Shown: positions 16,111 to 37,634 of the stretch, in pieces
Layout of the letters: every line of letters begins with the position of its first letter
How positions within the stretch are numbered: the first letter of the stretch is position 1
From: Solilutibacter silvestris
Lineage (GTDB): Bacteria > Pseudomonadota > Gammaproteobacteria > Xanthomonadales > Xanthomonadaceae
Assembly: GCF_002895945.1 (NCBI RefSeq)
Contig: NZ_NPZB01000002.1
Span: 992,001-1,056,000 of the forward strand
Length of the DNA: 64,000 nucleotides
Direction: 5' to 3'
The notes under the pieces: model-generated
Told to the model about the DNA's origin: nothing
The model's database searches: none
What the model saw: only the letters and a program-made list of their open reading frames with translations
Made by a program: the position numbers and the translations under genes

Positions 16111-17211
16111 CTACGCAGGCGCTCCCGCATCCAGTCGCACTCCACTGGCGGGATCGAACAGCAAGGCATGGCGACCGTCGCAGGACACTGCGGCGGTCGC
16201 GCCGAGCGGCGGCGGCTCGGCATCGCCTGGCATCCTCGCGACACAGGCCTGGCCTGCGATGGCGAGATGCGCGCAGGTTTCGTTGCCCAACGCTTCCACC
16301 GCAGCGACCGTAGACCTCGTACCCTGCGCGCCTTCGGGCCGGACCTGCACATGTTCCGGACGCACCCCGATCTTCACCTCGCGCCCGTCCCAATCGCGGC
16401 GCACGACGATGCCATCGAGGTCCAGCAGCGTGCCGTCGCCCAGTCGCAGCTGATGGCCAGCATTCAATTCCAGGCGTCCGCGCAGGACATTCATCGCCGG
16501 ACTGCCGAGGAAGGTGGCCACGAACAGATTGGCCGGATCGCGATACAGCGCCATCGGCGTGTCGATCTGCTGGATGCTGCCATCGCGCAACACCGCGATG
16601 CGCTGGCCCAGCGTCATCGCTTCGACCTGGTCGTGGGTGACGTAGACCATTGTCGTTCCGAGGCGCGCATGGATACGCGCGATCTCGGTACGCATCGACG
16701 CGCGCAACTTGGCATCGAGGTTGGACAGCGGCTCGTCGAGCAGGAACACCTTCGGTTCGCGCACCAAGGCACGGCCCAAGGCAACACGCTGGCGTTGGCC
16801 GCCGGACAACTGGCCGGGCCGGCGATCGAGCACCGCATCGAGTTCGAGGATCTGGGCGGCATCGTCGACGCGACGGCGGATTTCGCCCTTGTCGACACGG
16901 CGCAGCATCAACGCAAAACCGAGATTCTCCGCCACCGTCATGTGCGGATACAGCGCATAGCTCTGGAAGACCATGGCGATGTCGCGATCCATCGGCGCGA
17001 CATCGTTGACCACCCGTTCGCCGATCCTGAGCGTGCCTGTGGAGATCGCTTCCAGCCCCGCGATCATCCGCAGCAAAGTGGACTTGCCGCAGCCCGATGG
17101 GCCGACCAGTACCAACCGTTCTCCATCGGCAACTTCGAAACTGGCGGCTTCCACGGCCACATGGCCGTTCGGGTACACCTTGCGGACCTGATCCAAGCTC
17201 ACACTCGCCAT
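16111..17211 (-). CDS. Sugar ABC transporter ATP-binding protein (MalK/UgpC type)
   Basis: This is the cytosolic ATPase of a CUT1-family sugar importer. The 366-residue protein has Walker A GPSGCGKST at 37-45, the Q-loop in FQSYALYPHMT, signature LSGGQ at 135-139, Walker B VFLLDEP at about 155-161 and the switch His of VTHDQ. C-terminal OB-fold regulatory domains (about residues 240-366) are typical of MalK/MsmK. The permeases and binding protein lie 4.6 kb away as a separate operon, so this single ATPase probably energises them. A LacI-type palindrome 62 bases upstream, shared with the divergent GH1 gene, supports co-regulation. The longer open frame reaching 18789 is antisense to the GH1 gene and is not coding. 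Confidence 0.93.
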   Translation of the reverse strand: MASVSLDQVRKVYPNGHVAVEAASFEVADGERLVLVGPSGCGKSTLLRMIAGLEAISTGTLRIGERVVNDVAPMDRDIAMVFQSYALYPHMTVAENLGFALMLRRVDKGEIRRRVDDAAQILELDAVLDRRPGQLSGGQRQRVALGRALVREPKVFLLDEPLSNLDAKLRASMRTEIARIHARLGTTMVYVTHDQVEAMTLGQRIAVLRDGSIQQIDTPMALYRDPANLFVATFLGSPAMNVLRGRLELNAGHQLRLGDGTLLDLDGIVVRRDWDGREVKIGVRPEHVQVRPEGAQGTRSTVAAVEALGNETCAHLAIAGQACVARMPGDAEPPPLGATAAVSCDGRHALLFDPASGVRLDAGAPA

Positions 17212-17272
17212 GCACAGCGCTCCATTGCGGCAGCATTGGATGCAAATGGCGCGATGCCGCGATATCCTGCAA

Positions 17273-17286
17273 TGTAACCGCTTACA
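17273..17286. promoter_or_regulatory. LacI-type operator between the ABC-ATPase and GH1 genes
   Basis: TGTAACCGCTTACA is a perfect palindrome. It is the same TGTAA-NCGN-TTACA type seen at three other promoters of this locus. It ends 12 bases before the GH1 ATG and lies 62 bases upstream of the ATPase ATG, so one bound regulator could repress both divergent genes. Confidence 0.75.
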
Positions 17287-17298
17287 GACCGATCCGCC

Positions 17299-18672
17299 AT
17301 GCCGAATTCCGCAACCGCGTCCGCCCGATTCCCCGATGGTTTCCTGTGGGGAGCGGCGACCGCCGCCCACCAGATCGAAGGTTCGCCGCTGGCGGATGGC
17401 GCCGGTCCCAGCATCTGGACCCGCTTTGCGCATACGCCCGGAATGATCGTGAACGGCGATACCGGCGACATCGCCTGCGATCATTACCACCGCTGGAAGC
17501 AGGACGTCGCCCTGATGCGCGAACTCGGCCTCAAGGCCTATCGCTTCAGCACATCGTGGTCGCGCATCCTGCCCGAAGGTACCGGGCGCGTGAACCAGGC
17601 CGGCCTCGATTTCTATTCGCGGCTGGTCGACGAGTTGCTCGAGAACGGCATCGAGCCGCTGCTCACGCTGTATCACTGGGATCTGCCGGCGGCGCTGGAC
17701 GATCGTGGCGGTTGGCTGAATCGCGACATCGCGCAATGGTTCGCCGAATACGGCGACGTGCTCTATCGCGCGCTCGACGGACGCGTGAAGAAGTGGGTGA
17801 CGTTGAACGAACCGTGGGTCGTCACCGATGGCGGCTATCTGCACGGCGCATTGGCGCCGGGACATCGCAGCAAGTACGAAACGCCGATCGCCACCCACAA
17901 CCTGATGCGCGCGCACGGCGCTGCAGTGCAGGCGTATCGCGCCACCGGCAAGCACGAGATCGGCCTGGTCGTGAACATCGAACCCAAGTATCCGGCCAGC
18001 GATTCCGCGGATGACGCAGCGGCAGTGAAACGTGCGCATGCCTACATGAACGAGCAGTACCTCGATGCCGCCTTGCTCGGCCGTTACCCGCCCGAACTCA
18101 AGGACATTTTCGGCGACGCCTGGCCGCAATGGCCGCAGGAAGATTTCGACCTGATCCGCCAGAAGCTCGATTTCATCGGCATCAACTACTACACCCGCAG
18201 CGTCACCAAGGCGGCGCAGAGCTATCCGCTGGATGCTGCGGTGGTGAAGCAGCCGCTGGGCACCTACACCGAAACCGGTTGGGAAGTATTTCCGCAAGGC
18301 TTGGTCGATTTGCTGGTGTGGGCGAAGGATCGCTACGGCAACATTCCCACCTACATCACCGAAAACGGTGCGGCGTTCTTCGATCCGCCGGTCGCGGAAG
18401 GCGGACGCATCCGCGATCCGTTGCGCATCGACTACCTGCAGAAGCACCTCGGCGCGATCAGGCAAGCGATCGCCGCCGGTTGCGACATCCGCGGCTACAT
18501 GGTGTGGTCGCTGCTCGACAACATGGAATGGTCGCTGGGCTATTCCAAGCGTTTCGGCATCGTCCACGTCAATTACGGCACGCAGGAACGCACGCCGAAA
18601 GACAGTGCGCACTATTACTCCAAGATCGTGGCAAGCAACGGCGCCTCGCTGGGCGAGCCGCTGCCCTACTGA
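17299..18672 (+). CDS. Beta-glucosidase, glycoside hydrolase family 1
   Basis: A retaining GH1 (beta/alpha)8 enzyme predicted to release glucose from beta-linked oligosaccharides in the cytosol (no signal peptide). At 457 residues it has normal length. The acid/base Glu171 lies in TLNEPW, the nucleophile Glu355 in ITENG, the glycone-site motif AAHQIEG is at about 22-28 and the C-terminal WSLLDNMEWSLGYSKRFG is intact. The gene is divergent from the ABC-ATPase and shares its operator. It converges with the discoidin gene, whose stop overlaps it by seven bases. Among GH1 specificities beta-glucosidase is most likely; the linkage preference cannot be read from sequence. Confidence 0.93.
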   Translation: MPNSATASARFPDGFLWGAATAAHQIEGSPLADGAGPSIWTRFAHTPGMIVNGDTGDIACDHYHRWKQDVALMRELGLKAYRFSTSWSRILPEGTGRVNQAGLDFYSRLVDELLENGIEPLLTLYHWDLPAALDDRGGWLNRDIAQWFAEYGDVLYRALDGRVKKWVTLNEPWVVTDGGYLHGALAPGHRSKYETPIATHNLMRAHGAAVQAYRATGKHEIGLVVNIEPKYPASDSADDAAAVKRAHAYMNEQYLDAALLGRYPPELKDIFGDAWPQWPQEDFDLIRQKLDFIGINYYTRSVTKAAQSYPLDAAVVKQPLGTYTETGWEVFPQGLVDLLVWAKDRYGNIPTYITENGAAFFDPPVAEGGRIRDPLRIDYLQKHLGAIRQAIAAGCDIRGYMVWSLLDNMEWSLGYSKRFGIVHVNYGTQERTPKDSAHYYSKIVASNGASLGEPLPY

Positions 18673-21600
18673 GCGATCGCGATCTCGACGCGGCGGGCGT
18701 TGGCCGGAATCGCCAGTGTTCCATTGATCCATCGCGCCGGGCGCCCATCGATGCGCGTCATGCCCGGTTTGCGATCGGGATACGGCCACGGCAACAGGAA
18801 TCCCTGTCTCGGTTTCGCATCGCCGGAGAAGCTCAGCTGCAGGCGTTTGTCGTTTTGTCGCAATGTGTAATCAAGTCGTCCCCATGGCGTGCGCATCCCG
18901 TGGATGCCGATGCCGCGGCCTGTCAGCCATGACGGTGGCAGTCCGGCCGCAAGCACCATGCGCCCACCGTCGTCGACATACGCGAACATGTCGAGCGCGG
19001 ATCGCGCGAATTCCGATTCCACCCATGCATGCGGCAGATCACCGACGAAGAACGGCGTGCGTGGCGTCCGCGACACCACCTCGGCCCACTGGTTCCATTG
19101 CGGGGGTTGCTGTTGCGACAGGAACCATGTCATCGCATCGACTGCGCGCACACGCCAGCCCAGCCGCACGAATGTGCCGACCACGCGCAATTCGTAGGGC
19201 GTGTAGTCCTTCCACTCTAGTTGTCCGGAACGGCGCTGATCGAAACGCGTCCAATATTGCTCGAAGGTATTGCGCAGCAGATCCGGCGGCAGGCGCTCGC
19301 GCATGTCCGCGGGCGACAGCAATACCGAGGTCGAAGTGGCATCGAAGTCGCCGAGTTCGGCAGCGCCAGGAATGAAGTCGATCTTGTGCTGCGCGCTGGC
19401 AAGTCGGATCGATGCGAGGAACGCTCTCTCGAACTCGTCCGCATCACGGACATAGCGCGACTGCTCGGCCTTGTGGCCCAGCCAACCGGCGATGTCGGCG
19501 GCATCGCGATAACCGCGCAGCGCCCAGGCATCGTCGAAGTAGGAATGCATCGGCTTGGCCGAATAGCCTTCGTGGCTGATCGACGCCGGCATCAACCCGC
19601 GCAATGCCGGATTGGCGATGGCGTCGGGCTTGGCATCGTTCTCCTTGCGCAGTTGATCCATGTAAGCGACGGCATTGCGCACGCGCGGCCACATCGTTTC
19701 CAGCAAGGCGCGATCGCTGGTGTAGCGATAGTGCTGGGCGATGGCGTGGATCAGTTCGCCATGGCTGTCGTTCTCCGGCACCGGATCGCTGCCTCGTTCG
19801 TCGACGCAACATGGCACCTTGCCGTTATCGAACTGGTACGGCGCATACCAGCGCAGAAAATCGGAGACCGCATCGTCGTGCCCGAACGCCAGCAGCACGT
19901 CGCCGATCATCGCGCCGTCGCGAATCCACGAGCGTGCGTAGGATCGCGTTCCCGGCTGCAGGCGCGGGCCATCACGCGAAATCAGCATCCACGCCAGCGC
20001 GGTCTTGACGCTGTTGGCGAGATGGCGCCCCTCCGCTGGCACATCGACGCGCACGCGCCCGAGCATTGCGCGCCATTGCGCGGCGACGCGCGCCTGAGCC
20101 CGGGCGGCATCGCCGGGTGATAGCGTGACGGCATCGCCCTCCATCCGCGCCGACCAGTCGAATTCGCGGGTTTCCCCGGGCTTCAATGTCATCCGGTAGA
20201 TCGCCGCGCCCGAGGCCAAACCATCGGCATCATTCGCCGCAGGTGCACCGGATGTCTCGCCGCGATCGAGTCGCGCCGCGATCTCGCCGCCATCGAAATG
20301 GCCAGCAAATGCAGCGTCCGGCGCTTGTGCCAGCTGCACCCGATCCTTGCCGTCGAGTTCGATCCGTTTGCCGTTGAACGCCAACGCATGGACCGGTGCG
20401 TGCCCGCCCGGCGTGCTGAGGAACTGCTTCGGCGGATTGACCTGCAACGGTCGCAACGCGAGTGCCAACGCGATCTTCATCGGTTTCGTCGTGGTGTTGC
20501 GCAGGCGGTAGCGCGTGATCAAGCGCGACGTGCCTGGCTTGCCATCGGCGAAACTGGTGATGTCGAGCGTCCAGCGCGGATGCATCCATTGCACGCTGGG
20601 GATCGGCAAGGCATCGTCCTGCAGCGATTGCCCTGTGCGCACGTCAGCCCAGGTGACCAGCTTGTCGTGATCGCGCGCGCCGTCTTCGATGACGAACGGT
20701 TCGATGCTGGACTGGCCGCGACCAAGTTCCACCGCACCGTCTTCGCCCATCAAGCCATGCTGATGGCCACCACTGATGCCGAGCAACGTCCAGTAAGGCT
20801 GTTCGCCGGAAAAACCGCGCGGCCACAGGCCACGACGCGCACTGCTCGCCACTGTTTCAAGGAAGGCGGTCGGGCTTGCCCCCATGGCCAAGGGTTGCAG
20901 CACGGCTTCCGCCAGTGCATAGCCCTTGTCGCTCGCACTGCGCAACACCCGCAGGCGCAGGTAACGGCTTTCCGATTCCGGCAGCCACAACAGATCGACA
21001 TCGCCATCCCCGCCATGCACGTTGCGAGCCGTTTGCCAGTGCTTGCCATCATCGGAGAGATCGATGGCGTAATCGCTCGCGTGCAGTCCCGGCAGCCATT
21101 GCAACCGCAACCCGCCGAACTCACGCGCCGCGCCGAAATCCAGCGTCAACGCATGTTCACCGACAGGTGCGCGCCACGCCGTGGCCGCACTGCCATCCAC
21201 CGCAGCGGAGGCACCGCCATCGGGCAAAGAGACATCGGCGGTGGCGTGGATCGGCCCCGGTGCGGCGACAGGTGGAAGTTCACGGAAACCGAGATCGGCG
21301 ATGCAAGCTTGGCCCGCCCCACCCTTTGCCGCGCTCACCGTCAGCTCGAACGATGCGCTTTCCTTCAGCATAGGGTCGCTGGCCGGTCCCCACGCGAAGT
21401 CGATCTGGCGCTTGCGGATGCGCAGCGGCGTCCAAGCCGAAGGCAATTCCAGTGATGGCTTGCGCGACCACCAGACGTTGTCGCCCGAGGCATCGCCCAG
21501 TTTGAATTCGATGTGGTTGGCCGGCCCGGTGCCGCGCCATTGCAGGTCGAAGGCGTAGTTGTCCGGATAACGCAATGGCAATGCGCGTCGCGCAACGGCA

Positions 21601-21806
21601 TAGCCGGAACGACCACGGAAGTCGTAGTCGAGGCACAGTGCCTTGCCTCCCGGGCCATCGACCTGCCTGATTTTCGCGCCGACGCCATCGGATGCCACCG
21701 CCGTCCAGCGCGAGATGTCGCTGAAATCATCGAGGATGCGGCGATCCTGCGCATGCACACCGGTTGCGGCGAGCATCGTCAATCCAACGAGCAACGATTT
21801 CCTCAC
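18666..21806 (-). CDS. Exported discoidin / six-hairpin glycosidase-like protein (paralogue A)
   Basis: The 1046-residue product has a signal peptide (ending GVHA-Q) and a beta-rich N-terminal region (about 20-170). A discoidin (F5/8 type C) domain near 195-295 and a large C-terminal part that looks like an (alpha/alpha)6 catalytic barrel follow. The barrel carries RSWIRDGAMIGD, SHGELIHAIAQHY, SISHEGYS and DDAWALRGY, also found in the paralogue at 26528. The start is GTG at 21806, whose GTGA overlaps the permease stop. An open frame continuing to 22547 is antisense to the permease genes and is discarded. It closes an operon of GH144-like enzyme, binding protein and two permeases. A periplasmic or surface glycan-active role is inferred; no characterised family was assigned with certainty. 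Confidence 0.78.
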   Translation of the reverse strand: MRKSLLVGLTMLAATGVHAQDRRILDDFSDISRWTAVASDGVGAKIRQVDGPGGKALCLDYDFRGRSGYAVARRALPLRYPDNYAFDLQWRGTGPANHIEFKLGDASGDNVWWSRKPSLELPSAWTPLRIRKRQIDFAWGPASDPMLKESASFELTVSAAKGGAGQACIADLGFRELPPVAAPGPIHATADVSLPDGGASAAVDGSAATAWRAPVGEHALTLDFGAAREFGGLRLQWLPGLHASDYAIDLSDDGKHWQTARNVHGGDGDVDLLWLPESESRYLRLRVLRSASDKGYALAEAVLQPLAMGASPTAFLETVASSARRGLWPRGFSGEQPYWTLLGISGGHQHGLMGEDGAVELGRGQSSIEPFVIEDGARDHDKLVTWADVRTGQSLQDDALPIPSVQWMHPRWTLDITSFADGKPGTSRLITRYRLRNTTTKPMKIALALALRPLQVNPPKQFLSTPGGHAPVHALAFNGKRIELDGKDRVQLAQAPDAAFAGHFDGGEIAARLDRGETSGAPAANDADGLASGAAIYRMTLKPGETREFDWSARMEGDAVTLSPGDAARAQARVAAQWRAMLGRVRVDVPAEGRHLANSVKTALAWMLISRDGPRLQPGTRSYARSWIRDGAMIGDVLLAFGHDDAVSDFLRWYAPYQFDNGKVPCCVDERGSDPVPENDSHGELIHAIAQHYRYTSDRALLETMWPRVRNAVAYMDQLRKENDAKPDAIANPALRGLMPASISHEGYSAKPMHSYFDDAWALRGYRDAADIAGWLGHKAEQSRYVRDADEFERAFLASIRLASAQHKIDFIPGAAELGDFDATSTSVLLSPADMRERLPPDLLRNTFEQYWTRFDQRRSGQLEWKDYTPYELRVVGTFVRLGWRVRAVDAMTWFLSQQQPPQWNQWAEVVSRTPRTPFFVGDLPHAWVESEFARSALDMFAYVDDGGRMVLAAGLPPSWLTGRGIGIHGMRTPWGRLDYTLRQNDKRLQLSFSGDAKPRQGFLLPWPYPDRKPGMTRIDGRPARWINGTLAIPANARRVEIAIAQ

Positions 21807-22627
21807 CCTTTTACGCTTCCCACCAGCAGTCCCTGGATGTAATAGCGCTGCAGCATCAGGAACAACACCAGCACCGGCAGGATCGTCACCACCGAGCCGG
21901 CCATCATCAGTTCGTTGTCCTGCACGTGTTCGCGCGACAGTGATGCCAATGCAACCGGGAGCGTCTGCTGCGCCTGGTCGCCGAGCACGATCAGCGGCCA
22001 CATGAAGTCGTTCCACGCGCCGAGGAAACCGAAGATCGCCAGCGTGACCAGTATCGGTTTCAGCACCGGCAATGCGATCTGCCAGAAGATCCGCCATTCG
22101 CCGGCGCCATCGATGCGCGCGGCTTCCAGCAGTTCGTCGGGGATCGAGCGCGCGTATTGCCGCACCAGGTAGATGCCGAAGATACCCGCGAGCCCCGGCA
22201 CCATCGCGCCCAGATACGTGTTCACCAGCCCCATCTGCTTGAGCAGCAGGAACAGCGGCATCATCGCCACTTGCGCGGGAATCACCAATGCCGCGAGCAA
22301 CGAACGGAACACTCGGTCGCGCCCGCGCGAACGCAGCTTGGCGAAGGCGTATCCCGCGAGCGTGTTCATCAACAACGACATCACCATCACTCCGCTGGCG
22401 ATGGCGAGACTGTTGATGAAGTGCCGGCCCATGCCGGCGCGATCGAACAGTTGTCGATAGTTGTCGAGTGTCGGCGTCGATGGCAGCAAGGGCGCCGGGA
22501 AATGACTGGCTTCGCCCGGGTGCATGAACGAGACCGACAACATCCACAGCAGTGGTCCGAGGCTGAGCACGGCGATGACCGCCAGCAATGCATTCACCAC
22601 GATGGTGGCGTAACGCTGATTCATCAT
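21803..22627 (-). CDS. Sugar ABC transporter permease (MalG type)
   Basis: Inner-membrane subunit of a CUT1 importer. The 274-residue protein has about six membrane helices and the EAA loop EAARIDGAGEWRIFWQIALP, which contacts the ATPase. The ATG at 22627 overlaps the stop of the preceding permease (ATGA); a second ATG directly after it is equally possible because GGAGG is close to both. Its own stop overlaps the GTG of the discoidin gene. The tight ordering of binding protein, MalF-type and MalG-type subunits is the usual one for this family. Confidence 0.93.
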   Translation of the reverse strand: MMNQRYATIVVNALLAVIAVLSLGPLLWMLSVSFMHPGEASHFPAPLLPSTPTLDNYRQLFDRAGMGRHFINSLAIASGVMVMSLLMNTLAGYAFAKLRSRGRDRVFRSLLAALVIPAQVAMMPLFLLLKQMGLVNTYLGAMVPGLAGIFGIYLVRQYARSIPDELLEAARIDGAGEWRIFWQIALPVLKPILVTLAIFGFLGAWNDFMWPLIVLGDQAQQTLPVALASLSREHVQDNELMMAGSVVTILPVLVLFLMLQRYYIQGLLVGSVKG

Positions 22628-23505
22628 GCCTCCGTCCCGCGTCGGCGCGCCAGCCACATCAGCCCGCCGGTGCACACGCTCATGATCACGAACAGCAGGA
22701 AGGCGATCGCCGAGGCGTTGCCGAGGTTCCACCACTTGAAGCCTTCCTCGTACATGAAGTACAGCACGCTCTCGGTGCTCTGCAGTGGGCCACCTTGCGT
22801 CATCACATAGGGTTCGGCGAACAGCTGGAAATAGCCGGCCATGGTCAGGATTCCGACCAACACCAGGATCGGCGCCAGCGTCGGCAGCGTGATATGGCGG
22901 AACTGCTTCCACGTCGAAGCGCCATCGATGCGCGCGGCTTCGTACAGGTCTTCCGGAATCGCCTGCAATCCGGCGAGGAAGATGATCATGTTGTAGCCGA
23001 AATTCTTCCACACCGCGAACAGGATGATGGTCGGCATCGACCAGCGCGGCGAACCAAGCCAGTCGACGGGATCGATGCCGACGGCCGCCAGTCCGGAATT
23101 GACCATGCCGTAGCGGGTATGGAACAAGTAGCGCCAGATCACCGCCACTGCGACGATGGTGGTCACCACCGGCGCAAAAAATGCAGTGCGGAAAAACGGT
23201 TTGAAGCGCGCCGTCCGTGCATGCAGCAATAATGCAGCACTCAGCGACGCCGCCACCGACGCCGGTACGCCGACCAGCACGAAGTAGAAGGTGTTGGCCA
23301 GCGATTTCCAGAACAACGGCGTGTGCAGCAACGTCCAGTAATTGTGCAGCCCGACCACGCGCAAGTTGTGGCGATCGGCCAGCGCGTAGATGTCGAAGTC
23401 GGTGAAACTCAGCGCCAGTCCGGCCAGCACCGGCAGCAGGAAGAACAGGCCGATCACGATCAGTGCCGGTGCGACGAACATCCATCCGGCGATGCGGATG
23501 TTCAT
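22624..23505 (-). CDS. Sugar ABC transporter permease (MalF type)
   Basis: The 293-residue inner-membrane protein has six predicted helices, starting with WMFVAPALIVIGLFFLLPVL. Its EAA loop, EAARIDGASTWKQFRHITLP, lies near residues 185-205. It pairs with the downstream MalG-type subunit and with the lipoprotein binding protein whose stop overlaps its ATG by four bases. It lacks the large periplasmic P2 loop of E. coli MalF, like most CUT1 permeases. Substrate is inferred from the neighbours to be an oligosaccharide released by the GH144-like enzyme. Confidence 0.93.
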   Translation of the reverse strand: MNIRIAGWMFVAPALIVIGLFFLLPVLAGLALSFTDFDIYALADRHNLRVVGLHNYWTLLHTPLFWKSLANTFYFVLVGVPASVAASLSAALLLHARTARFKPFFRTAFFAPVVTTIVAVAVIWRYLFHTRYGMVNSGLAAVGIDPVDWLGSPRWSMPTIILFAVWKNFGYNMIIFLAGLQAIPEDLYEAARIDGASTWKQFRHITLPTLAPILVLVGILTMAGYFQLFAEPYVMTQGGPLQSTESVLYFMYEEGFKWWNLGNASAIAFLLFVIMSVCTGGLMWLARRRGTEA

Positions 23506-24794
23506 GGCGTCGCCTGCCCGCGTTGGTGATCGAGCATCCAGCGGCGCTTGGCTAGGATCGCATCGGCGCGGCGATCGAGATCGGCGGCCGCGGCATCGAC
23601 ATCCACCCTGCCCTGCGCCACCTGTTCACCGACGATGCGCATCTCCTGCGCGATGCGTTCCCATTCCGGCACCTTGGGCGGCGGCACCGCGCGCTCCATC
23701 TGCTCGCGGAACACCGCCATCATCGGATCGTTCGCCAGCGACGGCACGGCCCATGCCGAACGTCGCGATGGCAGGTCGCCAGTGAGTCCATGCAGGCGCA
23801 TCAGTTGCGCGGGTTGCGACAACCATTGCACCAGTGCCCACGCCTCGTCTTGTCGTTGTGAAGAACGGAAGACCACGAAACTGGTGCCGCCGGCGATGGA
23901 GCGACCGGGACAATGATCCGGACAATCGGGACCGGGCAATGGCATCGTGCCCCAGGCACCATCCAGCGAGCGCGGCAGGCGTTTGCGGAATTCCGAAATG
24001 TTCCACGGCCCGCTGATGTAGTACGCGAACAGGCCATTGCCGAATTCGTCCCAGACATTGGAGATGCGCGTGTTGTCGAGTCGCGGCGCGAATCCGGCAT
24101 CGAACATCTTCTTGTAGAACGCCAACGTGCGATGGAAACCTGCGCTGCGAAAATTGCCGAAGCGTCCGCCATCGCGCAGCAAAGGCTCTTGTTGCTGGAT
24201 GGCGAGATTGAGCAGCGGCTCGAATTCGTTGGTCGGCAGCAGGATGCTGTAGCGATCGCTGCCCTGCCGTGCCTTCATCGCCGTCATCGCGGCGAACCAG
24301 GTGTTCCAATCGCGCGGTAGCGTGGTGACGCCTGCCTGCTTCAGCAGATCACGTCGATAGAACGGCAGGCGCGTCTCGACATACCACGGGATCGCCCAGG
24401 TGCGGCCGTCGATGCGCCCGGCATCCCATGGACCGGCGAAAAAATCACCACTGTCGATGCCCGACCCTGCGATACGCACGTCCAGCGGCGCCAGTGCACC
24501 CAATGCCTCGAATTCCGGAATCCAAGTCGTGCCCAAGGGCACAACGTCCGGCAACGCATTGCCGGCGAACGCCGTCAGCAGCTTTTCATGCGCGGCTGTC
24601 CACGGCACCTGCTGCAAATCGACGCGAATGTCCGGATGCAGTCGCTCGAATTCCGGCAGCAATTTCGCCACCGCCTCGCCTTCCTGCCCCATCGCCCAGA
24701 AGCGCACGACCTTGCGCGAATCGTGCTGCCCGCCGCACGCAGCCATCGTCACCAGCAGCAGTGCGACCACGCCGCGACGCAAGGCATGCTTCAT
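23502..24794 (-). CDS. Extracellular sugar-binding lipoprotein of the ABC importer
   Basis: The 430-residue protein is a family 1 solute-binding protein. It begins with a lipoprotein signal whose lipobox MAAC places the modified cysteine at residue 20, so it is anchored on the periplasmic side. The mature part shows the expected fold markers (VVRFWAMGQEGEAVAKLLPEF early, then LPDVVPLGTTWIPEF). The aromatic and acidic pattern fits carbohydrate binding. The ATG at 24794 overlaps the stop of the GH144-like gene (ATGA), and the product's stop overlaps the permease, so the four genes are translationally linked. The frame open to 24959 is not part of the protein. Confidence 0.92.
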   Translation of the reverse strand: MKHALRRGVVALLLVTMAACGGQHDSRKVVRFWAMGQEGEAVAKLLPEFERLHPDIRVDLQQVPWTAAHEKLLTAFAGNALPDVVPLGTTWIPEFEALGALAPLDVRIAGSGIDSGDFFAGPWDAGRIDGRTWAIPWYVETRLPFYRRDLLKQAGVTTLPRDWNTWFAAMTAMKARQGSDRYSILLPTNEFEPLLNLAIQQQEPLLRDGGRFGNFRSAGFHRTLAFYKKMFDAGFAPRLDNTRISNVWDEFGNGLFAYYISGPWNISEFRKRLPRSLDGAWGTMPLPGPDCPDHCPGRSIAGGTSFVVFRSSQRQDEAWALVQWLSQPAQLMRLHGLTGDLPSRRSAWAVPSLANDPMMAVFREQMERAVPPPKVPEWERIAQEMRIVGEQVAQGRVDVDAAAADLDRRADAILAKRRWMLDHQRGQATP

Positions 24795-26236: not shown

Positions 26237-26275
26237 GCGCGCTCTCAACCCATCTTGATGCAGAGTTGAATCGAA

Positions 26276-26289
26276 TGTAAGCGTTTACA
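26276..26289. promoter_or_regulatory. LacI-type operator of the GH144-ABC operon
   Basis: TGTAAGCGTTTACA (13 of 14 bases symmetric around the central CG) lies 40-53 bases upstream of the GH144-like ATG, a position where a repressor would cover the promoter core. It matches the palindromes at 26466 and 35291 in all but one base. Confidence 0.8.
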
Positions 26290-29611: not shown

Positions 29612-31132
29612 TTATGTCATCGCGGGGGCCTTGCAAAGGCGATCGATGAACGCCTGGTGCGGGGGCATGGCCTGCGCACAGGCCGAAATCACCTTGCCGA
29701 CGTGTTCGACGAACTTGAACACTTCTTCTTCCGGCATCTGATCAACGATTGGGTGGCAGACCTCGGGCACGATTCGTTGCCCCAGCAGCACCTGCACCCA
29801 GCTCTGCATGGCGAAGAACTCCTCGCCATCGCGATAGAAACGGCCGGAGCGCCGGAACAGATCGATGTTCTCCTGCAGGCTGTCGGGAACGGACATGGTG
29901 CGGCAATGGTTCCAGAACGGCGTGTCATCGCGTTCGGTCGCCTTGTAATGCAGGACGATGAAATCGCGGATGCGGTCGTAGTCGAAATCGACGGCGCGGT
30001 TGTAGCGCTCGACCAGCCCCGGATCGAAGCCCACATCCGGGAACATGTCGATCAGGCGCACGATGCTCATCTGGATCAAATGAATGCTGGTCGATTCGAG
30101 CGGTTCCATGAAACCGCTGGCCAGGCCGACCGCAACGACATTCTTGTCCCAGAATTTCCTGCGCTTGCCGGTGATGAAGCGCAGCGGCCTCGGCTCGGCC
30201 AGCGCCTCGCCATCCAGATTGGCCAGCAGGGCCGCAGCGGCTTCGTCATCGCTGACGAAACGGCTGCTGTAAACGTAGCCATTGCCGACGCGATGCTGCA
30301 GGGGAATCCGCCACTGCCAGCCGGCAGGCCGCGCCGTGCAGCGTGTATATGGTGTCGGTGCTTCGGTCGTGGCGCAAGGCACGGCCAGCGCACGGTCGCA
30401 AGGCAGCCAGTGGCTCCAATCTTCATAGCCGGCCTTCAGGGTCTGCTCGATCAGCAAACCGCGAAATCCCGAGCAATCGATGAACAGATCGCCGGCGATG
30501 CGCTCGCCGCTTTCCAGCACCACCGCGTCGATGAATCCATCGTCCGGCCGCTGCGACACCTGCACGATCTTGCCTTCGTGCCTGACCACGCCCAGCTTTT
30601 CGGCATAGCCCCGCAGATACTTCGCATAGGATGCCGCATCGAAGTGGTAGGCATAGGCGATGTTGGCCAGCGGCGACGTTGCCGGCACATCGCTGGCCGG
30701 CGGCATGAAACGCCCTTGTTCGGCTGCTTCCGATTGCAGGCCATAGTGGCAATAGTCTTGCGCACGCCCTGCCCCGCGGGCGCGCAGCCAATAGTGATGG
30801 AACGGCACCGGACCGAGGTCCTGCCCCACCGAACCGAAGCCGTGATAGTAGGTATCGCCGATGCGCGCCCAGTCGCGGAACTGGATGCCGAGCTTGAACG
30901 TGCCCTGGGTGGCCTTGACGAAATCCGCTTCGTCCAGTCCCAGCACTTGCGCGTTGAAGGTGCGGATGTGCGGAACGGTGGCCTCGCCCACGCCGACGAT
31001 GCCGATCTCGTCGGATTCGACCACGCGGATCTTGCGATTCTTGCCGAGATGCCTGGCCAACGCGGCGGCGGCCATCCAGCCGGCCGCACCCCCGCCCACC
31101 ACGACGATGTCCCCGATCGCGTTTTCGTCCAT
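29612..31132 (-). CDS. Flavin-dependent tryptophan-halogenase-like protein
   Basis: The 506-residue protein has the FAD motif GGGAAGW at 13-19 and the halogenase hallmark WxWxIP (WQWRIP, 272-277). It also has both catalytic residues of PrnA/RebH at equivalent numbers: Lys80 (GTFKLGIQF) and Glu346 (MEPLEST). Such enzymes chlorinate or brominate aromatic substrates with FADH2, oxygen and halide. Relatives next to TonB-dependent receptors are common in xanthomonads, Caulobacter and Shewanella, but the substrate there is not established. The ATG at 31132 follows GGAGCAGG. It is 65 bases downstream of the receptor gene and probably cotranscribed with lacI and the receptor. A flavin reductase partner is not encoded in the window. 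Confidence 0.87.
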   Translation of the reverse strand: MDENAIGDIVVVGGGAAGWMAAAALARHLGKNRKIRVVESDEIGIVGVGEATVPHIRTFNAQVLGLDEADFVKATQGTFKLGIQFRDWARIGDTYYHGFGSVGQDLGPVPFHHYWLRARGAGRAQDYCHYGLQSEAAEQGRFMPPASDVPATSPLANIAYAYHFDAASYAKYLRGYAEKLGVVRHEGKIVQVSQRPDDGFIDAVVLESGERIAGDLFIDCSGFRGLLIEQTLKAGYEDWSHWLPCDRALAVPCATTEAPTPYTRCTARPAGWQWRIPLQHRVGNGYVYSSRFVSDDEAAAALLANLDGEALAEPRPLRFITGKRRKFWDKNVVAVGLASGFMEPLESTSIHLIQMSIVRLIDMFPDVGFDPGLVERYNRAVDFDYDRIRDFIVLHYKATERDDTPFWNHCRTMSVPDSLQENIDLFRRSGRFYRDGEEFFAMQSWVQVLLGQRIVPEVCHPIVDQMPEEEVFKFVEHVGKVISACAQAMPPHQAFIDRLCKAPAMT

Positions 31133-31197: not shown

Positions 31198-34100
31198 TCA
31201 GAAGAACACCCGCATGCTCATGAACAATGTGCGTGGCGGGGTGTACTGGGAACCATATTTCTTGACCTGGATGTTGGTCGCCTGGCCGTTGACCCAGGTC
31301 CAGGTGTAGTCGTTTCGGTTGCCCCAATTGAACGCATTGATCAAATCGCCACGGAACTGCACGGTCAGCCCCTTGTAGATCTTGATGTCCTTGGACAAGG
31401 ACAAATCAAGTTCCTTCACGCCGTACGCGCCCGGCACATCGAATGCCAGCGGCGTCGGAATGTTGCCCGACCCGGACCATCCGTCGGCCACTTCATTGCG
31501 TGGCGGCGGCGTGGACAGCGTCAGCTTGCCCGAAGAGGTGATCCCCCACGGCAAGTCATAGATGCCCGTTACGACGAGGCGATGCACGGGCACCGCTTTC
31601 AAAGGGATGAACGGGTAATTGCCGATGGTGGCGGCATCGAACGAGTAATGCTCGTCACCGCCGCGATTGCCGCTCGCGTGCGAGAAGGTATAGGCCACCG
31701 AAGCGCCCCAGCCCGAAGACTTGGTGTAGGGCTTGTCCGCCGACAACAGCAACTGCGCGGTCCGGGTTTCGATGCCGTTGTCGCCCAGGATCAGGCCACC
31801 GAAACCCGGCGGATTGTGTTCCCACGGCTGGGCGGTGCCGCCCCACGAAGGCGTGCCCCAGAAGGCGCCATTCGGGTAGCGGTTGCCCAGGGTGAAGACG
31901 AAGCCATTCTTGCTGATGATTTTCGACAACGTCGCCGACGTATTCCACTCGCCCAGCTTGGCGCGCAAGCCCAGCGAATACTGATCCGAATACGGCGTCT
32001 TCATGTTGTTGTTCAACAAGTCGATTTCGCCATTGCGTACGCCGGGCGTGACCAGACCCGCCATCCCGGCGCTGCCGCCGCTGAGGTAACCCGGATTCCA
32101 GTTTGCACAAGTATTCGGGGCTGGCGTGCAGCCGGTCGACTCGGCGAACTTGACGGTGTAGCTGGACAGCGCCGACTTGACCTGTTCCAGTCCCATGTAG
32201 TCGTACAGGTTGCGGTCGTAGCTGCGACCCGCACCGCCGAACAGCACCAGGCTTTCGTCGCCACTGATGTCGTACGAGAAGCCCAGGCGCGGCGCCCAGT
32301 TGTTCTTGGGCGACTTGCGGTTATGGCCGTTGCCGATGTAGTTGTCGATGTTGATGCCGCCCTTCGCCAGCGTTTGCCGGTAGGTCTGGCCAGCAGGCGC
32401 ACCCGATGTGGTGTCGGGTCCATTCAACGCCGCCAGGACTTCCGACGGGGTGACGAAATTGGTGTACGAGGGAATCTTTTCGTAATCCCAGCGCACGCCC
32501 AGATTGAATTGCAGCCTGTCGGTGACGTCCCAGTCGTCCTGGATGTAGAAGCCGTACTGCTTGTCCTTGGTCGTCACCGACGGCGTGCCGCCGACGAACG
32601 GCAGGTTGAACTTGACCTCGTACGGAATGGCGCTGGTGCCGGTCGGACCGGGAGCACTGCCATCGTTGACCATGTAATAGAACGACGGGTTGACCGTGGA
32701 ATTTTCGCTCTGGGTCAGGTCGACCTGCTTGTACTTGAAGCCGACCTTGATGACATGGCTGCCATGCCAGTCGATGCGATTGAAGGTCAGGTCGTCCTGG
32801 AACGCCGGACCCTTTTGCCCCTTGCGCTGGATCGCAAGGCCACTGGTCGCGTCATCGAACATCAGGACGTCGCTTTCGCTCTGCTGCTTGGTGTAGACCG
32901 ACTGGTTGCCGAAGTTGTACGCGGTCGGGTTGAACAGCACGTCTTCGTACGTCACCCTTGCCTCGTTCAGAAACGACTCACCGTAATGCTCCCAGCGCAG
33001 GTCGTAGCGGTTTTCGCGATTCGCGTTGTTCTTGGCGGCGCGCGCCGTGGTTTGGGCACCGACGCTGTCACGGCTGTCTTCCTTGCGAACCTTGGCGGAA
33101 AACTCCAGCTTGTCGTTGTCACCGATCTCCCAGTCGATCTTGCCGAAATACAGGTCTTCCTTGAACGGTCGCGTTACCGGGCCGAACTGCTGCTGCACTC
33201 GCTGCGGCAGATATGGCGCATAGCTGGCGAATTGGGAGGGCACGGTCACCGGATCGGCTGGCGTCACGAAGTTCTTGCCCTCGTAACTCACGAAGAAGTG
33301 CATCTTGTCCTTGATGATCGGGCCACCCAAGGCGAAGCCATATTCGTTCTGGCGCGTCTTGAGCTTGTCCTTGCCCGGCTCCTGTTCCGCTGCCGTGCGA
33401 TCGCGCCAGCTCGTGTTGGTATGGCGACCGAACACTTCGCCATGGAACTGGTTGCCGCCGGACTTGGTCTGGGCGATGATCGCCGCCGAACCGACCTGGT
33501 CGAATTCAGCCTTGTAGTTCGAAGTGACGACCTTGTATTCGCCGATGGCAAGCTGCGGGAACGGGTTGCCGGCGCTCTGTTGCTGCCCCGACACACCACC
33601 GAACAGATAGCTCTTCTGGCCGACACCGTCGATGTAGACGTTGACCGCCGAGGTTTGCTGGGCGCCGCCGCGGATATCCGAATGGCCGGAGCCATCGGTG
33701 GTGAACTGCATGCCCGGCACGGTGTCCGCAAATTCGAGGAAATTGCGCGTCAGCTGCGGCACCGTATTGATCTGCTTCAGCGAAATGTTCTTGCCGACTT
33801 CGGAAGTCTTCTTTTCGACCAGCGCCCCGGTCACCGTCACCTTGCCCAGTTCGCCTGTCGTCGCTGCGGCCGCGCCGCCGGCAAGATTGAGGTTGACCGA
33901 AGTCGCCACCGCCAGGGTCACGGTTTGTGCGGCGCCGCCTGCCGCCTCCACCCGATAGGTGCCGGGCTCCAGACCGACCAGCGCGTAACTGCCATCAGCA
34001 TTGGCACTGACCTTGCGGGTCGCCCCCGAGGCCGTGTTGGTCGCGGTGATTTGCGCCCCGGGCGGCGCCTTGCCGCGCAAGGTCGCATTCGACGACTGCG

Positions 34101-34200
34101 CGAACGCCGGCGTCGACATCGCGGCAATGCAGCTGCACAACGCGACGGCAAGCAGGCTGCGTTGCAGGCGGGAATGGGAGGATCGGTGTTCGTTCTTCAT
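31198..34200 (-). CDS. TonB-dependent outer-membrane receptor (Oar-like)
   Basis: The 1000-residue protein should carry the glycan substrate across the outer membrane using TonB energy. It has a signal peptide ending AFA-Q, a small carboxypeptidase-regulatory-like domain (about 38-105, TNTASGATRKVSANADGSYA) and a TonB-box-like segment GKVTVTG. The plug domain contains DIRGG and YIDGVGQ. A beta-barrel of about 750 residues ends in Phe (MSMRVFF), the signal for barrel assembly. The ATG at 34200 follows ATGAGG; an upstream GTG is weaker. It starts 10 bases after the lacI stop, so regulator and receptor share a transcript. No SusD partner is present, as expected in Proteobacteria. Confidence 0.9.
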   Translation of the reverse strand: MKNEHRSSHSRLQRSLLAVALCSCIAAMSTPAFAQSSNATLRGKAPPGAQITATNTASGATRKVSANADGSYALVGLEPGTYRVEAAGGAAQTVTLAVATSVNLNLAGGAAAATTGELGKVTVTGALVEKKTSEVGKNISLKQINTVPQLTRNFLEFADTVPGMQFTTDGSGHSDIRGGAQQTSAVNVYIDGVGQKSYLFGGVSGQQQSAGNPFPQLAIGEYKVVTSNYKAEFDQVGSAAIIAQTKSGGNQFHGEVFGRHTNTSWRDRTAAEQEPGKDKLKTRQNEYGFALGGPIIKDKMHFFVSYEGKNFVTPADPVTVPSQFASYAPYLPQRVQQQFGPVTRPFKEDLYFGKIDWEIGDNDKLEFSAKVRKEDSRDSVGAQTTARAAKNNANRENRYDLRWEHYGESFLNEARVTYEDVLFNPTAYNFGNQSVYTKQQSESDVLMFDDATSGLAIQRKGQKGPAFQDDLTFNRIDWHGSHVIKVGFKYKQVDLTQSENSTVNPSFYYMVNDGSAPGPTGTSAIPYEVKFNLPFVGGTPSVTTKDKQYGFYIQDDWDVTDRLQFNLGVRWDYEKIPSYTNFVTPSEVLAALNGPDTTSGAPAGQTYRQTLAKGGINIDNYIGNGHNRKSPKNNWAPRLGFSYDISGDESLVLFGGAGRSYDRNLYDYMGLEQVKSALSSYTVKFAESTGCTPAPNTCANWNPGYLSGGSAGMAGLVTPGVRNGEIDLLNNNMKTPYSDQYSLGLRAKLGEWNTSATLSKIISKNGFVFTLGNRYPNGAFWGTPSWGGTAQPWEHNPPGFGGLILGDNGIETRTAQLLLSADKPYTKSSGWGASVAYTFSHASGNRGGDEHYSFDAATIGNYPFIPLKAVPVHRLVVTGIYDLPWGITSSGKLTLSTPPPRNEVADGWSGSGNIPTPLAFDVPGAYGVKELDLSLSKDIKIYKGLTVQFRGDLINAFNWGNRNDYTWTWVNGQATNIQVKKYGSQYTPPRTLFMSMRVFF

Positions 34201-34210
34201 GAGTTGCACC

Positions 34211-35248
34211 TCATGTTGCGGGTTGTTGGAGGGCGCTGTGGATCGGGGGAGATGCGTTGTGCCGCGTGTCGCGCGTCGACTCGCGCACGATCAATTTCGG
34301 CGTGACCAGTTCTGCGTGGGCACCATCGGCGGCGAGCAGGCGACGCACCGCGCGCGCACCAAGCTCGACGATGTCTGTGCCTGCGGTGGTCAGGCGCGGC
34401 CAGGTGCAGGCAGCCAACGGGATGTCATCGAATCCCGCCAGCGCGATGTCGTCGGGAACGTGCACGCCCTTGCGGGCGAGCGCGAACAGGCAACCCAGCG
34501 CCATCTGGTCATTGGCGGCGAACACCGCGTCCGGACGTTCGGCCAAGCCGGCAAGGAATTCGCCCGCTTCATGTCCGCGCGTCACGGTGAAATCACCCGG
34601 CAGGACCCATGGCGTCAGCGATGGCGACAGTTCGCGCAATGCATCGACATAGGCACGCAGGCGTTCGCGCGCCTCGAAGTTGTCTTCCGGACCGGCGATG
34701 AAGGCGATTCGGCGATAGCCGCATTCCAGCAGATGCTCGACGATGGCGCGGGCGCCGGCATGGTTGTCCACGTTGACCGTGGGCAGTTCCGCGCAGGCCG
34801 GCAAATGGCTGTTGATCAGCACCGTCGGGATGCCCGGAAACAGGTTCTCCAGCAGTTGCGCACCGCTGTCCACCTGCGGCGACATGATCAGCAATCCATC
34901 GACACGACCACGCATCGCCTGCAGGACCTGTCGCTGCAGGTCTGGATCGGTATGGCTGCACGACACCAGCAATTGGTGACCCTGCAGCCGCGCTTCGCGT
35001 TCGATGCCGTGGATCAGTTCCGAGAAGAACTCGCCTTCGAAATCCGGCAGCACCACGCCGACCGTATGCGTGCGCCGACTGCTGAGGCTGCGCGCGGCAT
35101 GGTGCGGCTGGTAACGCAGTTCCGCGGCTGCCGCCAACACCTTGGCTCGCGCTTCCTCGGTCACGCTGTCCTGGCCGTTGAGCGCACGCGACACGGTCGC
35201 CACCGACACCTTGGCGAGCACTGCTATGTCCTTGATGGTGACCGCCAT
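34211..35248 (-). CDS. LacI-family transcriptional regulator
   Basis: The 345-residue protein has the N-terminal helix-turn-helix (TIKDIAVLAKVSVATVSRAL, residues 4-23), the hinge helix near 50-60 and a periplasmic-binding-protein-like sensor domain. The recognition helix SVATVSRAL is of the type that binds TGTAA-NCGN-TTACA palindromes, and four of these occur at the locus, including one 43 bases upstream of its own ATG. It is therefore the likely local, autoregulated repressor, relieved by a sugar from the imported glycan. It sits at the head of the lacI-receptor-halogenase operon and downstream of the GH3 gene on the same strand. Confidence 0.93.
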   Translation of the reverse strand: MAVTIKDIAVLAKVSVATVSRALNGQDSVTEEARAKVLAAAAELRYQPHHAARSLSSRRTHTVGVVLPDFEGEFFSELIHGIEREARLQGHQLLVSCSHTDPDLQRQVLQAMRGRVDGLLIMSPQVDSGAQLLENLFPGIPTVLINSHLPACAELPTVNVDNHAGARAIVEHLLECGYRRIAFIAGPEDNFEARERLRAYVDALRELSPSLTPWVLPGDFTVTRGHEAGEFLAGLAERPDAVFAANDQMALGCLFALARKGVHVPDDIALAGFDDIPLAACTWPRLTTAGTDIVELGARAVRRLLAADGAHAELVTPKLIVRESTRDTRHNASPPIHSALQQPAT

Positions 35249-35290: not shown

Positions 35291-35304
35291 TGTAAACGTT
35301 TACA
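35291..35304. promoter_or_regulatory. LacI-type operator upstream of lacI
   Basis: TGTAAACGTTTACA is a perfect palindrome 43-56 bases upstream of the lacI ATG. It implies autoregulation and control of the receptor and halogenase-like genes behind it. The flanking TCGAA on the left is also shared with the GH144 promoter. Confidence 0.82.
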
Positions 35305-35328
35305 AACGAAGGTGTAAAGGTTTCGTCA

Positions 35329-35372
35329 CAACTTTCGATTGCGCGTCGCAGCAATTCGTATCGGTATGTTGT
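35329..35372 (-). repeat. Conserved 44-bp promoter block, copy 2
   Basis: Partner of 26315-26358 (37 of 44 identical), at the same distance from the operator and from the start codon. It lies just outside the GH3 stop at 35391, so the likeness cannot come from coding constraint. It is absent at the 17273 and 26466 operators as far as can be seen. Confidence 0.6.
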
Positions 35373-35390
35373 GCTTGTCGCAGCGCAGCA

Positions 35391-37634
35391 TCAATGCTGC
35401 GCGATGACCTCGAACGAACCTGACAGCGTGGCCTCTGAGCTGCCGCCGACAAACACACTGAAGCGTCCAGGCTCCACGACTTTGCGCATCCCGGCATCAT
35501 GGAATGCGTAGTCTTCGCGCCCGAGTTCAAACGTGATCGCCCCGCTCTCTCCTACAGCCAGGTGAATGCGTCGGAACCCGCGCAGTTGTCGCACCGGTCG
35601 CGTCACGCTGGCCACTTCATCGCGCAGATACAGCTGCACCACTTCATCGCCAGCCCGCGTGCCGGTATTGGTCACCGTGACCGTCACTTTCTGGCGGCCA
35701 TTCGCGGTGATGCGTGGCGACGCGATCCGCAGCTTGTCGTAACCAAAGGTGGTGTAGCTCAGGCCGTAGCCGAAAGAAAACAGCGGCGTCCACGGCGCGT
35801 CGATGTACTTCGATGTGTATTTCTCTTCCGCGCGCGGTGGACGTCCCGTCATCTTGTGCGCGTAATAGATCGGCACCTGGCCGACGTTGCGCGGGAAGGT
35901 GATGGCGAGACGTGCCGCCGGATTGACGTCACCGAACAGGATGTCGCTGATGGCGTTGCCGCCCTCGATACCGGGGAACCATGCTTCGACCAGCGCCGAT
36001 GTTTCCTCTGCCAGTTTCCCGACTGAAAGCGGCCGCCCATTCAACAGCACCGCGACCACCGGCTTGCCCGTCGCGACCAGCGCATCGGCCAGTGCCTGCT
36101 GGTTGCCGGGGAGATCAAGCGACGTGCGGCTCGCCGCTTCCGCGCTCATCTCCGGACTCTCACCCACGAACAACAACACGACATCGGAATCCCGCGCAGC
36201 TTTCACTGCTGCCGCGAAACCCGAGCGGTCGTCGCCGATCAATTCGCTGCCACGCGCGTACACCACGCGTTTCTCTCCCAGGGTATTCCTCAGCGCGGCC
36301 AGCGGCGTCACTGCATCTTCGGGTTTCCCTGCACCCGGCCAGTTGCCGACCATCGCCCATGGTTGATCGGCCAACGGCCCGATCACTGCGACCTCGCCGA
36401 TGTCCTTGCGCAACGGCAACACGTCGCGCGCATTCTTCAGCAAGACGATGGAACGACCGGCTGCGACACGCGCGACCTGGCGATGTTCGGGCGTGAGGAT
36501 GGACGCACGCTCGCGTGCTGGATCGGCACCGCGATACGGATCATCGAACAGTCCGAGCCTGCATTTGGCGACCAGTACGCGCTGCACCGAGGCGTCGACG
36601 ACGGCGAGCGGCAATCGTCCGGATGCCACCCGTTGTGGCAGCTCCTTGCTGTAGATCTCACTGATCATGTCGACATCCACGCCGGCACGCAGCGCGCGTT
36701 CGCCGGCATCGCCGCGATTGCCGGCGACGCCATGGTTCATCAGCTCCATCACCCCGGTGTAATCGCTGACGACCACGCCATTCCATCCCCATTGCTTGCG
36801 CAACAGGCCATTGATCAGCGCGCCATTGGCGTGCATCGGCGTGCCGTCGAGTTCATTGAACGCGGCCATGATCGATCCCACGCCGGCGTCGACGGCTGCC
36901 TTGAACGGCGGCAAGTAGACGTCTTGCAGCGTCTGCGGCGACATCGAGGCGATGTTGTAATCGCGGCCGCCTTCCGCGGCGCCGTAGCCGACGAAATGCT
37001 TGGCGGTGGCGAGCACGCTGTCGTGCGCCGAAAGATCGCGGCCCTGGAAACCGCGCACGCGCGCCGCCGCCATCATTGAACCCAGATAGGGATCCTCGCC
37101 CGATCCTTCGACGACACGACCCCATCGTGGATCGCGCGCGATGTCGACCATCGGTGCATAGGTCCAGTGGATGCCGCTGGCACTTGCTTCCACTGCCGCG
37201 ATACGCGCGCTGCGTTCGGCTAGTTCCGGATCGAAACTGCCCGCCTCCGCCAACGGCACCGGGAAGATGGTGCGATAGCCGTGGATCACGTCATCGGCGA
37301 ACAGCAGCGGGATCTTCAATCGCGAACGCGTCACCGCGATTTCCTGCAAACGACGCGTATCGGCGACGCCACGCACGCCGAGGAATGAGCCAACGCCACC
37401 GGCAGCGATCACTTCATCGCCGCCGGCTTGTCCTTGCGATCCAGCTGCACCGGTCGCGATCGCCTGCCGGGCAAGCTGGTTGAGCTGCCCGAGTTTCTCG
37501 GCCGCCGTCATCCGTGCCATCAGGTTGCGGATGCGTGGGGAAGCGGCGCTGCAATCGGCGGCACTGGCGTATGCGGGATGCAACAGCGCCGTCAAGGCGG
37601 TGATCAACGAAAGACGCCGGATGGAACTGTGCAT
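35391..37634 (-). CDS. Beta-glucosidase, glycoside hydrolase family 3 (BglX-like)
   Basis: The 747-residue protein has a signal peptide (ending YASA-A), so it is periplasmic. The GH3 N-terminal barrel carries the substrate-binding motif GSGEDPYLG and KHFVGYG, and the nucleophile Asp291 sits in VVSDYTG. The alpha/beta sandwich follows, then a fibronectin-III-like C-terminal domain from about residue 650 (VTVTVTNTGTRAGDEVVQLYLRD split over that region). The layout is that of E. coli BglX. Together with the cytosolic GH1 enzyme this gives beta-glucosidases in two compartments. It precedes lacI on the same strand, but an operator lies between them and none is seen upstream of GH3, so it may have its own promoter (37640-37700). 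Confidence 0.92.
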   Translation of the reverse strand: MHSSIRRLSLITALTALLHPAYASAADCSAASPRIRNLMARMTAAEKLGQLNQLARQAIATGAAGSQGQAGGDEVIAAGGVGSFLGVRGVADTRRLQEIAVTRSRLKIPLLFADDVIHGYRTIFPVPLAEAGSFDPELAERSARIAAVEASASGIHWTYAPMVDIARDPRWGRVVEGSGEDPYLGSMMAAARVRGFQGRDLSAHDSVLATAKHFVGYGAAEGGRDYNIASMSPQTLQDVYLPPFKAAVDAGVGSIMAAFNELDGTPMHANGALINGLLRKQWGWNGVVVSDYTGVMELMNHGVAGNRGDAGERALRAGVDVDMISEIYSKELPQRVASGRLPLAVVDASVQRVLVAKCRLGLFDDPYRGADPARERASILTPEHRQVARVAAGRSIVLLKNARDVLPLRKDIGEVAVIGPLADQPWAMVGNWPGAGKPEDAVTPLAALRNTLGEKRVVYARGSELIGDDRSGFAAAVKAARDSDVVLLFVGESPEMSAEAASRTSLDLPGNQQALADALVATGKPVVAVLLNGRPLSVGKLAEETSALVEAWFPGIEGGNAISDILFGDVNPAARLAITFPRNVGQVPIYYAHKMTGRPPRAEEKYTSKYIDAPWTPLFSFGYGLSYTTFGYDKLRIASPRITANGRQKVTVTVTNTGTRAGDEVVQLYLRDEVASVTRPVRQLRGFRRIHLAVGESGAITFELGREDYAFHDAGMRKVVEPGRFSVFVGGSSEATLSGSFEVIAQH

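Follow-up and report, generated by a model that had tools for sequence, protein, structure and literature searches.

A putative LacI regulon for beta-1,2-glucan use in Solilutibacter silvestris, with two candidate GH15-fold enzymes

A stretch of 64,000 nucleotides from Solilutibacter silvestris (contig NZ_NPZB01000002.1, positions 992,001 to 1,056,000; hereafter the window) was analyzed, where the interval 16111-37634 holds twelve genes that likely make up a LacI regulon dedicated to the use of beta-1,2-glucan as food. Beta-1,2-glucans are polymers used by bacteria in plant infection and symbiosis, and their consumption by bacteria is known only in parts. The original prediction, made from the sequence of the window, had described the interval as resembling a full beta-1,2-glucan utilisation system. 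All nine genes that it named, encoding a GH144 glucanase, a binding lipoprotein, two permeases, an ATPase, GH1 and GH3 beta-glucosidases, a receptor, and a LacI protein, were recovered at the locus in profile and homology searches, and the interpretation stands, strengthened by a set of operators unique to this locus in the genome. The gene list was incomplete, as two large proteins, here named SixA and SixB, and a halogenase-like gene had been overlooked.

The GH144 gene, its operators, and the surrounding locus

Judged by its sequence, the glucanase encoded at 24791 is a GH144 member, as had been proposed. Rather than falling outside the family, it matched PF10091 at 279.4 bits, against a curated cut-off of 27, and its best solved relative was XcSGL (XCC2207) of Xanthomonas campestris (8xul, E 8e-165); chains annotated as putative glucoamylases and CpSGL came next. 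Glu, Phe, and Tyr occupy the positions aligned with E239, F286, and Y367 of XcSGL (numbered from the Gln that replaces E239 in the deposited E239Q mutant), which are named as clan-defining in the accessible text of PMC12102758. The proposed general base of CpSGL, E142, aligned by eye with the Asp of the motif SSVDTAW. XcSGL, which shares the clan residues and this candidate general-base Asp, is a characterized enzyme active on beta-1,2-glucan, with no activity detected on other glucans in the accessible part of the table (PMC12102758). The next locus number, XCC2208, is listed as a receptor without a canonical plug (PMC1790865), and the accessible parts of both papers assign no locus or regulon to beta-1,2-glucan. 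A cyclic-glucan-synthase domain was considered as the source of the GH144 call and rejected, since in the same search the window protein scored 282 bits and the synthase-type protein 83 bits. The GH144 gene may start at an ATG at 26236 rather than at 26248.

Four 14-bp palindromes of one consensus, TGTAANCGNTTACA, were identified at the locus (Table 1). The 2.85 Mb genome contains exactly four exact matches to this consensus, all within the locus, and none to the backward pattern; in shuffled windows, the mean was 0.03 matches at up to one mismatch. Across 80 loci fetched by a GH144 query, the exact operator occurred in 27 and a version with up to one mismatch in 67, whereas the reversed-sequence control gave no site. 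Relative to estimated gene starts, the 131 sites stood in front of the genes for LacI (51), GH144 (32), the receptor (19), GH1 (18), and a SixB-type protein (one); six more were near GH3, and four were assigned to no gene. LacI control, also part of the original prediction, is supported by the four genome-unique operators of one consensus, and the LacI protein of this locus is predicted to bind all four. The scan of the window found no operator in front of the GH3 gene, and the membership of GH3 in the regulon is uncertain at this locus. None of six terms sought was found in the main text of a LacI regulon survey (PMC4052901).

The gene order recurs in many of the 80 loci and is hence not due to chance. 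These loci were fetched by GH144 alone and are therefore not independent, and the matches to LacI, GH1, and the ATPase may be paralogues: within the DNA retrieved around each GH144 gene, the binding protein was matched in 77 loci, the receptor in 71, LacI in 67, SixB in 55, the halogenase-like protein in 20, GH1 in 19, the ATPase in 13, and GH3 in nine. Among the 56 loci with at least 9.5 kb on both sides, the corresponding counts were 54, 51, 52, 46, 12, 14, 11, and 6. The records that carry the homologous loci have titles naming Lysobacter, Stenotrophomonas, Pseudoxanthomonas, Xanthomonas, and others. In the phylum sample, a similar GH144 locus with SixB was also present in three genomes (L118-L120) from a different family. 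Two of the loci (L035 and L038) contain two GH144 genes each, one before LacI and the other in the usual place. One record titled Bacillus subtilis (L070) shows the Stenotrophomonas gene order for LacI, the receptor, GH144, the importer, and SixB, and it is probably contaminated or mislabelled.

On the minus strand, the genes for GH144, the binding lipoprotein, MalF, MalG, and SixB follow one another, and at each of the four junctions start and stop codons overlap by four bases (ATGA or GTGA), which suggests that they form one operon. LacI, the Oar-like receptor, and the halogenase-like gene form a second minus-strand group. SixA is divergent from GH144, GH1 is divergent from the ATPase, and GH3 is encoded upstream of LacI in the same direction.

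Table 1. Genes and predicted operators at 16111-37634 of the window. Signal peptides and the lipobox were called by eye; aa, amino acids.
Feature	Position	Strand	Basis and remarks
MalK/UgpC-type ATP-binding cassette (ABC) ATPase	16111..17211	-	ABC_tran, OB_MalK, TOBE_2; NF008653 460.2 bits, cut-off 432 (scan of the untrimmed open reading frame 16111-18789)
Operator TGTAACCGCTTACA	17273..17286	+	LacI-type; between ATPase and GH1
GH1 beta-glucosidase	17299..18672	+	TIGR03356 595.6 bits, cut-off 478.5; best solved relative 6jfp
SixB	18666..21806	-	1046 aa; F5/8C (CBM32-like) domain, supersandwich, (alpha/alpha)6 barrel; signal peptide
MalG-type permease	21803..22627	-	Open reading frame placed by homology; match in 71 of 80 homologous loci
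MalF-type permease	22624..23505	-	BPD_transp_1
Sugar-binding lipoprotein, Lin1841-like	23502..24794	-	SBP_bac_1; 3uor and 5ysb alignments; lipobox
GH144 endo-beta-1,2-glucanase (predicted)	24791..26248	-	PF10091; 8xul, 5gzh; residue check
Operator TGTAAGCGTTTACA	26276..26289	+	Before GH144
Operator TGTAAACGTTTACA	26466..26479	+	Before SixA
SixA	26528..29605	+	SixB paralogue; F5/8C (CBM32-like) domain; signal peptide
Tryptophan-halogenase-like flavoprotein	29612..31132	-	PF04820 663 bits; match in 20 of 80 loci
Oar-like outer-membrane receptor	31198..34209	-	OMP_b-brl_4, TonB_dep_Rec_b-barrel, CarboxypepD_reg
LacI-family regulator	34211..35248	-	PF00356, Peripla_BP_3
Operator TGTAAACGTTTACA	35291..35304	+	Before the LacI-receptor-halogenase group
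GH3 beta-glucosidase, BglX type	35391..37634	-	NF011678 789 bits, cut-off 666; signal peptide

The closest solved relatives of the binding lipoprotein were 3uor (E 6.9e-144), a Xanthomonas citri protein annotated as MalE, and Lin1841 (E 4.5e-65), with the next protein at 4.8e-31. Lin1841 is a binder of Sop3-5, and GH3 and GH1 enzymes occur in such clusters, according to the accessible text of PMC12369401. The locus suggests that 3uor may be a sophorooligosaccharide binder as well. Both beta-glucosidases of the locus exceeded their NCBIfam cut-offs, and GH1 is probably cytoplasmic, because no signal peptide was seen by eye. The Oar-like receptor has both an N-terminal CarboxypepD_reg extension and barrel domains, and no plug domain was present in its domain list at E up to 0.001. 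The halogenase-like gene follows the receptor.

It is highly improbable that the locus serves another glucan (beta-1,3, beta-1,4, or maltodextrin) with GH144 as an incidental member. GH1, GH3, and MalFGK-type transporters are generic, and the binding protein also has GanS- and MalE-like NCBIfam matches, far under cut-off. Against such a substrate stand the GH144 residues, the Lin1841 similarity, the single operator set, and the pairing of SixB with GH144, SOGP, and MdoG genes.

Parts of this arrangement are found in described systems. As far as the accessible text of PMC12369401 goes, the clusters Lin1839-1841 of Listeria innocua and SGR_2423-2427 of Streptomyces griseus share Lin1841 or a homologue, an ABC transporter, and a GH3 or GH1 beta-glucosidase with the window locus. 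In contrast, they encode a GH94 phosphorylase or GH193, a beta-1,2-glucanase family represented in the S. griseus cluster, instead of GH144, and neither an outer-membrane receptor nor a SixA/SixB-like gene is mentioned there. Similarly, TonB-dependent receptor loci of Xanthomonas such as sux combine a receptor, a transporter, an enzyme, and a LacI-type regulator (PMC1790865, in its accessible part), whereas sux is directed at sucrose and uses a major-facilitator transporter, and the window locus has an ABC importer and GH144.

Outside the interval, a near-perfect 20-bp palindrome, CTATAACCAATTGATTATAG, was found at 15557-15576 before an SMC-like gene (11998-15501).

Predicted fold and candidate catalytic residues of SixA and SixB

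SixA and SixB share 30% identity, are each about 1,000 residues long with an F5/8C domain, and are apparently secreted. The candidate catalytic residues of SixB are D630, E746, and E909 (D610, E726, and E889 in the numbering of its model, which is used below), and SixA keeps the candidate catalytic motifs of SixB, FIRDG, SHEGYS, and LAEVV. When the window SixB and SixA were aligned with 41 of 58 SixB-type proteins of at least 850 amino acids (three shorter proteins of 61 were excluded), the three residues were invariant in all 43 sequences.

In profile searches, SixB gave a weak six-hairpin match in Pfam and a weak oligosaccharide-amylase match in NCBIfam (36.6 bits, cut-off 820.7). A sequence search among solved chains found no significant match for the catalytic part, and the N-terminal part matched a domain of endoglucanase H at E 1.6. 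In structure comparison, the model of the catalytic part, an (alpha/alpha)6 barrel with a supersandwich, fitted best to GH15-type alpha-glucosidases; the fold lists are no evidence against families absent from them, and the labels CBM11, GH65, and GH78 are presumed wherever the title of a matched entry gives none. Helix counting on the model placed the acid Glu (E726, alpha5-alpha6 loop), the base Glu (E889, alpha11-alpha12 loop), and the O4/O6-binding Asp (D610) in GH15-like positions.

The GH15 group compared here comprises glucodextranase (1ug9), glucoamylase (1lf6), isomaltose glucohydrolase (5z3a), and the GH15 homologue dextran dextrinase (9ju0), as described in the accessible text of PMC12446779. 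SixB shares with it the (alpha/alpha)6 barrel, a supersandwich that aligned for three of the four, an acid Glu between alpha5 and alpha6, a base (or nucleophile) Glu between alpha11 and alpha12, and the substrate-binding Asp. SixB differs in its 12-14% identity, the lack of a PF00723 match, and its place in a beta-1,2-glucan regulon. SixB and SixA are predicted to be GH15-fold enzymes of this regulon, which would act in the periplasm.

Several results weigh against this assignment. PF00723 was missing from the lists of both proteins at E up to 5, where the filters of HMMER drop most matches above about 0.1, and SixA and SixB were not filed as GH15 for this reason. With the full-length SixB model, GH15 entries were tied with GH65, alpha-rhamnosidases, and others. 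Comparison with a corrected GH15 profile was weak (probability 55%), with ten of 16 rows kept (560-660 amino acids) after five of 790-824 and one of 426 amino acids had been dropped. Furthermore, an inverting enzyme of the GH15 group cannot be distinguished from a retaining one by its conserved catalytic residues (PMC12446779, accessible part). Outside GH15, comparisons with GH94 profiles gave probabilities of 44% and 89%, with two sequences each. Membership of SixA and SixB in PF10091 was considered and rejected, as the Pfam scan gave no such match.

Distribution of SixB and SixA and its relation to glucan synthesis

A search of 200 genomes of the order with SixB gave matches in 41, of which 40 carried a SixB-type gene and one the SixA type only, and in all 40 the distance between SixB and a GH144 gene is about 7 kb or less. 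GH144 (E <1e-60) was found in 56 of the 200 genomes, and the 144 without it also lacked SixB. Among the 274 genomes of the class sample, SixB was matched in 12. The nine strong matches were all in genomes with a PF10091 protein, and no PF10091 protein was found in the three genomes with weak matches (E 1e-11 to 1e-15). SixB was inside a GH144 locus in three of the nine and in other settings in six, four of which placed it next to SOGP, MdoG, or GH94 genes. The GH94-type neighbor has Pfam domains common to cyclic glucan synthase and other GH94 enzymes. The MdoG-family neighbors, in the locus L104, are slightly nearer OpgG than OpgD and so give no sign of a ring-closing type.

SixA genes unlinked to such a locus were found in 21 further genomes of the order, where the operator (up to one mismatch) stood directly upstream in 16: at 35-99 bases from the estimated start in 13 of 18, and in all three of L121-L123. 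When up to two mismatches were allowed, two sites were found in the reversed control of the 18 SixA regions. All 15 unlinked SixA genes in the window's own family had the operator. The neighbors of unlinked SixA in L121 and L123 showed no glucan theme.

MdoG presence gave an ambiguous picture across the order. In the window's own family, MdoG was found in 26 of 28 SixB genomes and in none of the eight others, an association that counts for a role of SixA and SixB in cutting alpha-1,6-closed glucan (see below), whereas in family f172 no such association was observed. XccOpgD of GH186 makes the proposed substrate of SixA and SixB, an alpha-1,6-cyclised beta-1,2-glucan, according to the accessible text of PMC11228985; it is a maker and not a degrader, and its link to SixB is through the MdoG-family neighbors in L104.

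Counting against the explanation proposed below, 16 of the 56 GH144 genomes lack SixB, and the Fisher p of 2e-29 for their co-occurrence, with pairs counted by eye, is uncorrected for the relatedness of the genomes. No glucan gene was found among the three and four scanned neighboring open reading frames of SixB in L099 and L102. Five of the six unlinked SixA genes in f172 have no operator, MdoG is missing from all 12 SixB genomes of that family, and the S. silvestris genome has no MdoG (OpgG/OpgD) gene. An alpha-1,6-cyclised glucan would therefore be foreign to this bacterium.

The same genome encodes, at about 751450-760230 of contig C1 (L107), a cyclic-glucan-synthase-like protein of 2927 amino acids with PF10091 and GH94 domains, and the bacterium may both make and eat related glucans. 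Recycling of its own cyclic beta-1,2-glucan, instead of scavenging that of others, appears unlikely as the purpose of the locus: the domains of this protein are those of a cyclic glucan synthase, and the MdoG counts in the window's own family suggest that users are often makers, but uptake of external glucan is what a TonB-type receptor and LacI control would suit, and the synthase-like gene is on another contig with none of the four exact operators.

A proposed pathway and its significance

Sequence, synteny, and operators support the parts, the regulon, and the fold of SixA and SixB, and we infer the following locations, substrates, and direction of flow. The Oar-like receptor would carry the glucan through the outer membrane, and periplasmic GH144 would cut it to sophorooligosaccharides. 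These would be imported by the Lin1841-like lipoprotein, the two permeases, and the ATPase, and glucose would be freed by cytoplasmic GH1 (and periplasmic GH3). SixB and SixA would take off the alpha-1,6-linked glucose at the junction left once GH144 opens rings such as the Xanthomonas 16-mer. Beta-glucosidases would first trim the non-reducing end, and the alpha-1,6-linked glucose would otherwise block further digestion. An exo-acting enzyme would be unable to open the ring; once GH144 and a beta-glucosidase have exposed the alpha-1,6-linked glucose, however, it could take this residue off.

The alpha-1,6 step is a tentative proposal, made because GH15 enzymes act on alpha-glucosides (PMC12446779) and because beta-1,2-glucans are described with one kind of alpha linkage, the single alpha-1,6 closure of Ralstonia, Xanthomonas, and Cereibacter (PMC11842490, PMC11228985, all three in their accessible parts). 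It is equally tentative, and short of probable, that SixB and SixA form an undescribed GH15-fold group dismantling such glucans. SixB also adjoins phosphorylase genes, which weighs against the alpha-1,6 step. Somewhat unlikely is a role of both proteins in the same system on beta-1,2 linkages, as an exo-enzyme or transglycosylase, rather than on an alpha linkage. Among the matches listed in a search of open-licence literature, the accessible texts described neither this locus nor an enzyme that cuts alpha-1,6-cyclised beta-1,2-glucan.

A regulon that combines a receptor, an importer, enzymes, and an operator provides a directly testable model of beta-1,2-glucan use, and it ties two large uncharacterised enzyme groups to this use with a predicted cut. 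An enzyme cutting the alpha-1,6 junction, if the prediction is true, would be a useful analytical tool. In that case, SixA and SixB would also supply the degradative side, so far missing, to the synthesis by XccOpgD of a glucan that Xanthomonas needs to infect model plants.

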